This document shows, piece by piece, positions 13,953 to 16,516 of a stretch of 38,220 nucleotides of DNA. Positions within the stretch are counted from its first letter, which is position 1; every line of letters begins with the position of its first letter. A program made the position numbers and the translations under genes. A model generated the notes under the pieces. That model did no database searches. It had not been told where the DNA came from and saw only the letters and a program-made list of their open reading frames with translations. The DNA is from an uncultured Clostridia bacterium (GTDB lineage: Bacteria > Bacillota > Clostridia > Oscillospirales > Acutalibacteraceae). Location of the stretch: the NCBI GenBank assembly GCA_946182865.1, contig CAMHAV010000008.1, forward strand, positions 1 through 38,220. Reading direction: 5' to 3'.

Positions 13953-14039
13953 GCGGATATGGCGGAATTGGCAGACGCGCTAGATTCAGGTTCTAGTGAA
14001 TGCAAGTTCATGCAGGTTCAAGTCCTGTTATCCGCACCA
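13953..14039 (+). tRNA. tRNA-Leu(CAG), CCA encoded
   Basis: Acceptor GCGGATA/TATCCGC, anticodon arm CTAGA-ttCAGgt-TCTAG, long variable arm, GGTTCAAGTCC. Confidence 0.93.
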
Positions 14040-14044
14040 ATTCT

Positions 14045-14133
14045 GGAGGGGTGTCCGAGCGGTTTAAGGAGCTAGTCTTGAAAACTAGTGATAGGGTGAC
14101 CTACCAAGGGTTCGAATCCCTTCCCCTCCGCCA
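14045..14133 (+). tRNA. tRNA-Ser(TGA), CCA encoded
   Basis: Acceptor GGAGGGG/CCCCTCC, anticodon arm CTAGT-cTTGAAa-ACTAG, long variable arm, GGTTCGAATCC. Confidence 0.93.
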
Positions 14134-14182
14134 CACCTCTCTTTTTTTGTTTTATATATGTTATGTTGTTGTCAACACATTC

Positions 14183-14275
14183 GGAGAAGTACTCAAGTGG
14201 TGACGAGGCTCCCCTGCTAAGGGAGTAGGCTGGCTAAACACTGGCGCGAGGGTTCAAATCCCTCCTTCTCCGCCA
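14183..14275 (+). tRNA. tRNA-Ser(GCT), CCA encoded
   Basis: Acceptor GGAGAAG/CTTCTCC, anticodon arm CTCCC-ctGCTaa-GGGAG, long variable arm, GGTTCAAATCC. Confidence 0.93.
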
Positions 14276-14329
14276 AAGCGAAAATCCCATCGACGAACGT
14301 CGATGGGATTTTTACTTTGTATTATTCAT
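14273..14329 (+). repeat. 57-bp direct repeat copy 1 (tRNA CCA plus terminator hairpin)
   Basis: 51/57 identical to 16734..16790 by hand alignment, same length. Confidence 0.85.
14280..14316 (+). terminator. Terminator of the tRNA cluster
   Basis: AAAATCCCATCGACgaacGTCGATGGGATTTTT. Confidence 0.9.
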
Positions 14330-14620
14330 TTGTTTTTATTGCCTGAATCCGGTATGATAGAGACAGACGGAACGGCTTTTTTCTGCACTGACTTTTTCCA
14401 TAATACTGTCATTTTCCCTTTTTGAAGAAACACAAAAGCTTCTTGTTTCTTGCTTTTGTTTATAACCATTTAAAAAAAAGATAATTTACAAAAAAATTAC
14501 AATATCATCGCTCAATAATCACCTATTTACGGACATCTTTTGGTATCATTGGAACATGGAACGGTTTTGCTGTGTGATAGCAGAGGATAATACTTTTCTT
14601 TATTAAGGAGGCATTTTGAT

Positions 14621-16516
14621 ATGAGTAATAAGGAACTATGCAGAATTTAATCAGTCATTTTCTGCTTAAAAATACAGTATGCTTGCGTGTTTCAGAAAGT
14701 GAAATGTATCAATTATTTCTGCATAGTTCCTAAGTATAAGAAAACCCACAATTCAAAATGGGAATCGGGACATTCTGCCTCCCCCCGAGACAGACATAAT
14801 GTTTCGTCCCGACCGGGGCTGCTTTTCCGGCTGGGCTGTGCCGTGTTGGCGATGACGGTGGCAGTATGCGCGGCTCCGCTGCTGCGCCGCTTTTTTGAGG
14901 CGCAATTACCGATGGTGCACGCGGCGGGTCAAACTATAAATGTATACGGAACATGGGATTCTAATGACAAAATGGAGCCGGGTCAAACCTCGTTAGATGT
15001 AGATAAGATATATATGAATGCCGGTAGTGTCATTAGAATCCGTAACGGTAAGACCATAAATATGGTTAATCAACAAACAATAGGATCAGCTGACCTTAGC
15101 GTGATTTATCTTTATTCCAATGCCAATTTGCATTTGTATGGTACGATGACAGGTTCGTGTGATGAATTGAATATAACTTCAGATAGTTCTCATGTTTATG
15201 TTTATCTCAATGAAGGCGCTGTCTTTGACGTTACCTTTAACGATGATACATTCGGAAGTCGTCAGTGCTACATAGAATGTATCGGCTACAATGTCGGCAG
15301 CAACCTAACGGATAGCGAAACCTACCCCGATGTCAACTTTGATATATCAACAGATATCCAAGTGTTGAACGTGAGTGCAGACCCCAATGTGGCTGTCATA
15401 CAAGGTGAATCAGTCGGTAAATTCTGTAATGTTGAAGATACGACCTATCGCTACACTGCCAGCCCTGTCGAGGGATTCAGCCGACTTATCTGGTTAAAAG
15501 GCGGTGCCAATGGCTTCATACTGAACCCCGAAACACAAACCCAATTCCAAAACACAACCCAAATCAAAAACAGAGTGGATTTCTCCTGCAAAGAGAACGC
15601 GAAAGGCCAGTTGTACGCCAAATACATTCCCGACGACGCGTGGACATGGGACTTGGAAGAGGGGAAGGCAACCTATACAGTTACCAACATCGATCCCGCT
15701 GTTGCGGGCGGAACAACAGAAGTGACCTACACCGACGATACGTTGGAATCTGTTGTTAACGAAGAGACCGGCAAGACCATCTATACAGCTTCTGTTACTG
15801 TTGACGGAGAACCCATCACCGGTACTTACGAGGTTGATAACGACAACCAAGGCACCGGCGAAGGTGGCACCGGCGAAGGCGGTACTGGCGAGGGTGGCAC
15901 CGGCGAAGGCGGTACTGGCGAGGGTGGCACCGGCGAAGGCGGCACCGGCGAGGGTGGCACCGGCGAAGGCGGCACCGGCGAGGGTGGCACCGGCGAGGGT
16001 GGCACCGGCGAGGGTGGCACCGGCGAGGGTGGCACCAATGGTGATCATTCAAAAGACTACGCTTTTATCACCGGCAGCGTATGGAGCTGGACAAAGGGTA
16101 CTGCTGCCGGAATGCCGGTGATCCTCAAAAACACGGTGGGAGATGACACCACTACCTTCAGCAAGCTGCAAAAGGTATTTGTAGACGGAACCCTTCTCAC
16201 ACAGGACGTTCACTACAAAGCAGTTCCCGGCAGCATTAAGATCACGCTCCAGCCAAGTTACCTGAAAAACCTCAGCGCAGGCACACACACGCTTACCGTC
16301 GAACTGAAGGACGCCACACTGGAACATACGTTCACCATTGCGGAGTCCGGCGGCAGTGATCCGGGTAAGGGCAGTGATTCACCGAAAACCGGAGAAAGCA
16401 ATTTCAAGCTCTTTTTGTCCGCATGGCTCTTCATGGCTTCCTCCGCAATGATCGTCATGTTGCTCTTCCAGAAGAAAAAGAAAAATACTCCCACAGGTAG
16501 ACGCAGTCAATTCTAA
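14621..16516 (+). CDS. Sortase-type surface protein with GTGEG repeats, 5' end interrupted by a MITE-like element (currently open from GTG 14687)
   Basis: SD taaggagg plus ATG at 14621; signal-peptide-like [24 protein letters not shown]2-like Ig-type domain; SPKTGE-hydrophobic-KKKK C-terminus. One in-frame TAA at 14648-14650 lies inside the inserted element. Confidence 0.8.
14632..14730. mobile_element. 99-bp MITE-like insertion with 14-bp perfect terminal inverted repeats and TAA/TAA flanks
   Basis: GGAACTATGCAGAA...TTCTGCATAGTTCC; TAA at 14629-14631 and 14731-14733; excision restores the ORF. Confidence 0.85.
15851..16030 (+). repeat. 12 x 15-bp in-frame tandem repeat encoding GTGEG
   Basis: Units ggcaccggcga(a/g)gg(t/c) or ggtactggcgagggt, 180 bp total. 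Confidence 0.97.

Follow-up and report, generated by a model that had tools for sequence, protein, structure and literature searches.

The interrupted surface-protein gene

The window, a 38,220-nucleotide stretch of contig CAMHAV010000008.1 from an uncultured Clostridia bacterium (GCA_946182865.1), belongs to an assembly of 3.3 Mb in 274 contigs from a ruminant-gut Clostridia, referred to here as G000. It carries a gene for a predicted surface protein, which a 99-bp element interrupts just after the start codon (Table 1). Behind its signal peptide, the predicted product has a long extracellular part with approximately 12 GEGGT-type repeats, as well as a weak CBM_X2 match and an SPKTG anchor. 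The pentapeptide repeats lie at about 15860-16050 of the window, and their copy number could vary. Directly upstream of the gene are three tRNA genes and a strong terminator (13953-14313).

Table 1. Positions, in the window, of the features of the interrupted gene and of the inserted element.
Feature	Position	Strand	Basis
Shine-Dalgarno sequence TAAGGAGG	14604..14611	+	Direct reading; also in the G017 and G001 homologs
Original ATG and 9-codon frame MSNKELCRI, stop TAA at 14648-14650 within the element	14621..14650	+	Sequence and translation
Target-site duplication TAA, left copy	14629..14631	+	Identical 3-bp TWA on both sides in 12/12 G000 copies
MITE, 99 bp, non-coding, probably ISAzo13-derived	14632..14730	+	12 full copies in G000; found in most congeners
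Left terminal inverted repeat GGAACTATGCAGAA, perfect 14 bp	14632..14645	+	Matches the transposase 3' end of the candidate partner element
Right terminal inverted repeat TTCTGCATAGTTCC, perfect 14 bp	14717..14730	-	Direct reading and comparison with the candidate partner
Target-site duplication TAA, right copy	14731..14733	+	G000 and genus-wide flank comparison
Rest of the surface-protein gene, 593 codons and stop, intact	14735..16516	+	Translation; homologs in G010, G007, G017 and G001; weak CBM_X2 match
Predicted hydrophobic signal-peptide core	14810..14884 (about)	+	Read from the translation
SPKTG motif, hydrophobic stretch and basic tail, predicted sortase-type wall anchor	16379..16513	+	Translation; same layout in the G007, G017 and G010 homologs

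Direct reading agreed with the initial annotation on the 99-bp length, the 14-bp ends, the TAA repeats, the Shine-Dalgarno sequence and the in-frame stop, which is the only one met within the element when reading from the original ATG. The Shine-Dalgarno sequence precedes the ATG by 9 nt, and the element follows the ATG by 8 nt. No transposase open reading frame was found inside the 99 bp, and the RNA fold of the element gave z = -7.3, a strong fold-back. The initial annotation had also placed the break in the coding region of the signal peptide. This was correct in that the insertion lies in the n-region, at codons 3-4; however, the hydrophobic core is untouched and lies downstream. Removal of the element together with one TAA (102 bp) joins the flanks in frame, as had been claimed, and the join matches the homologs.

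Homologs of the window gene were identified in four congeners, G010 (44% identity), G007 (37%), G017 (45%) and G001, each with a similar Shine-Dalgarno sequence and spacing, an ATG and a lysine-rich n-region. We looked among relatives for a fixed 99 bp with a conserved start inside it and found instead that all four of these homologs were without the element. The joined window flanks aligned through the junction with G017 (76% over 255 bp), G007 (72%) and G010 (71%). Because the congener homologs run through the site without interruption, the insertion in the window represents the derived state. Separately, a 5-nt deletion close to the 5' end of the G001 homolog (L075, G001:C285) appears to shift its reading frame; this gene, too, may be off, or the deletion may be an assembly error.

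Copies, target sites and empty sites

The initial annotation suggested that the genome be searched for further copies, and 12 full copies were found in G000 (7 identical, 5 at 95%), with 3 more cut by contig ends. The paired-end pattern occurred 12 times in the 3.3-Mb genome compared to 0 times for the reversed control. All 12 full copies were flanked on both sides by a perfect 3-bp TWA (TAA or TTA). Genus-wide, a perfect 3-bp duplication was present at 71 of 95 distinct sites, and was TWA at 69 of these; when the sites were oriented to TTA, the preceding base was C in 57%, giving CTTA as the preferred target. Most of the 17 congeners tested had the element, and copies that were 100% identical occurred in at least 4 other species, which suggests recent spread. 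Among 60 relatives, the element was absent outside the genus save for chance-like matches of 21-27 bp, and no MITE end was detected in viral contigs. The named records with the element are metagenome-assembled genomes (MAGs) titled uncultured Ruminococcus, Clostridiales or Clostridia, several of them from goat abomasum or omasum. The MITE family is genus-wide and appears to have been active recently in these little-studied ruminant-gut Clostridia.

Base-perfect empty sites in another species were found for three other copies: a copy in G016 compared to G017 (94% over 498 bp), a copy in G001 compared to G005 (96.6% over 500 bp), and a copy in G005 compared to G001 (90% over 499 bp). These sites show that the target duplication is precise; they would follow from precise insertion or from precise excision, which look alike here. 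With multiple copies, inverted ends, a target duplication and empty sites, the MITE reading of the initial annotation held, and the sequence supports a true MITE insertion at the window locus. The strong fold-back (z = -7.3) and the terminal stem, in which a few changes are compensatory, could instead point to a fixed palindromic or regulatory repeat acting as an RNA element and not as a transposon. We consider this extremely unlikely; it is contradicted by the perfect TWA duplications and the precise empty sites, conservation of the stem is expected of inverted repeats recognized by a transposase, and there was no Rfam match at the site.

The other insertion sites in G000 were varied. At two loci (L006 and L011), the copy sits exactly on a TAA stop codon, which the TWA duplication leaves in place; such a landing site is harmless. 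In an AAA_25-type ATPase gene (L002 1165-2140, G000:C232), the copy is in frame, and reading through it adds 34 residues. Of the other copies, one breaks a BspA-type LRR gene (L003), one a gamma-glutamyl-cyclotransferase-like gene (L008, near codon 11) and one a gene that weakly matches PA14 (L009); another lies in a small RelE/ParE-like gene (L001). Since genes are hit at several loci, they are not spared by the element, and the window insertion is not an isolated case.

Shorter derivatives of approximately 42 bp (L250 144-185; L109 134-175) and approximately 60 bp (L100) were also observed, each with both ends kept and identical flanking TWA. In G005, a tandem pair of copies has one TWA in common (L158, G005:C16:42673-42879); as its sequence reads, one MITE copy is inserted into the target duplication of the other. 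Most copies in G017, and some in G013 and G012, had lost a few terminal bases together with the duplication at the contig-right end. We considered whether these truncated right ends (L113-L125, L083 and L095 among them) were heterogeneous joining products and rejected this, the loss being nearly always contig-right whatever the orientation of the element. Because the side of the loss tracks contig coordinates and not element orientation, the truncated ends in these public MAGs are probably an assembly artefact.

The candidate partner element

A partner was sought with the MITE end pattern, with three mismatches allowed. Six further TWA-flanked ends of the form GGAATTGTGCATAA were found in G000, each about 50 bp short of the end of a contig, the pattern left by a longer multicopy element at which assembly broke off. 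Beyond the inverted repeat, the ends of this longer element matched those of the MITE at 20 of 25 positions on the left and 21 of 25 on the right, and none of 20,000 shuffles was as good. Its left end could be extended to 98 bp in G006 and to about 90 bp in two copies from G404, which is a different genus. In both genomes, the reverse strand of the left end encodes a C-terminus, ELASVNIIGDDFHPNWNYTILPQPTE or ELASINIVGDDFHPNWNYTISPQLTE, followed by a TAA stop 15 bp from the tip; the coding differences between the two versions are mostly synonymous or conservative.

The C-terminal peptide, of which 26 codons are visible, aligned to the last positions of the ISAzo13 models in Pfam (E 0.043-0.16) and NCBIfam (E 0.008-0.022), a match that falls below the curated cut-offs because of its shortness; ISAzo13 was the only family returned by either search. 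A tblastn search of plasmids matched 57 records; the 20 matches listed overlie 8 annotated genes, 7 of which are ISAzo13 transposases. Two annotated Mesorhizobium ISAzo13 copies, delimited by comparison with each other, had GG tips, TAA duplications and a stop 15 bp from the tip. Duplications of 3 bp have been described for the ISAzo13 family (PMC10045372).

These data strongly indicate that the longer partner would be an ISAzo13 insertion sequence. Because the ends are shared, the C-terminal peptide matches, and the GG tip, TAA target, 15-bp stop-to-tip spacing and 3-bp duplication are those of ISAzo13 insertion sequences, we assign the MITE, with high confidence, to an ISAzo13-type transposase. 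The MITE differs from ISAzo13 insertion sequences in that it has no transposase, and over 25 bp its ends share 80-84% identity with those of the G000 partner. The matching transposase called for by the initial annotation was traced in part: probable ISAzo13-type partner ends are present, but the G000 assembly contains no PF07592 gene. Assembly yielded no complete ISAzo13 element bounded by these ends, every copy being cut at a contig end, and the longer element's end was not found as DNA in viral contigs, phages or plasmids.

Other candidates for the partner were rejected. The TWA target had suggested an IS5/Harbinger partner; however, none of the 25 DDE_Tnp_1 matches inspected was flanked by such ends, and neither was the one DDE_Tnp_4 gene found in nine genomes. 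In G005, an unpaired left end (L111/L126) was examined as a possible autonomous copy, and only ordinary genes lay beyond it, with no second end found. In G167, which belongs to another genus, an ISAzo13 gene proved to be a decayed copy without these ends.

Expression of the gene and possible precise loss of the element

From the original ATG, translation would stop after 9 codons, and the strong fold-back starts just past this codon, 11 nt from its A. In the initial annotation, weak expression from GTG 14687 was considered. The element could supply a new start at this codon or at GTG 14699, in which case protein would continue to be produced, but with an altered n-region; the 609-aa ORF that GTG 14687 opens in frame preserves the signal core. 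However, no Shine-Dalgarno sequence precedes any in-frame start inside the element, these two included, and a promoter scan of the region detected no sigma-70-like promoter and nothing above chance. Expression from a new start is therefore highly doubtful. Because a stop follows after 9 codons and there is no internal start with a Shine-Dalgarno sequence, the gene is probably off, and loss or strong loss of surface-protein expression is the likeliest outcome. The undamaged remainder of the gene fits a young insertion, although low-level expression and a very young allele would look alike in an intact downstream ORF.

The gene could also be a reversible switch, in which precise loss of the element, either mediated by a transposase or by replication slippage between the 3-bp repeats aided by the fold-back, restores it in part of the population and produces phase variation of the surface protein. 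Such a switch would agree with the in-frame 102 bp and a join that matches the homologs, with the undamaged downstream ORF, with the other G000 copies in envelope-type genes (the BspA-type LRR gene and the gene with a weak PA14 match), and with the precise empty sites between species, comparisons that draw on one consensus genome per species. In contrast, no excised allele was seen within one population at any locus, three surface-type genes among 12 sites are too few to show targeting, and the choice of TWA alone accounts for the target. We regard the switch as highly improbable, and it is likewise highly improbable that the MITE serves as an on/off switch at a useful rate for this and other envelope-type genes in G000.

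Taken together, the best explanation, to which we assign a probability of roughly 0.85, is an off allele created when a MITE mobilized in trans by an ISAzo13-type transposase inserted into the surface-protein gene. The non-autonomous element would have inserted at TAA, duplicating 3 bp, and its family was very likely mobilized by the transposase of an ISAzo13-family insertion sequence with like ends (GG tip, TWA duplication). The G000 allele would be null or nearly so. Trans-mobilization, loss of expression and recency are what we infer from these comparisons.

Prokaryotic MITEs such as Correia, MITEAba12, RUP and QMITEs (PMC10969869) are likewise about 100 bp, with perfect inverted ends, a target duplication, many copies, no coding capacity and a presumed foreign transposase; the window MITE differs from them in its sequence, its TWA target and its ISAzo13-type partner. 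ISAzo13 is not mentioned in that review, and no ISAzo13-derived MITE was found in the literature searched, so that this is apparently the first. In-gene palindromic elements (Rickettsia RPE, intragenic ERIC) resemble the copy that is read through in the AAA-ATPase-like gene, whereas in the window copy the frame used has a stop and the gene is interrupted. Eukaryotic PIF/Harbinger MITEs have a TWA (TTA/TAA) duplication. In this they are alike, but the partner here looks like ISAzo13 and not like IS5/Harbinger.

The MITE family adds a genus-wide case, linked to ISAzo13, to the ruminant-gut Clostridia. A surface gene interrupted at codon 4 and otherwise intact in sequence is a clean test case for the precise exit of small fold-back elements in bacteria.
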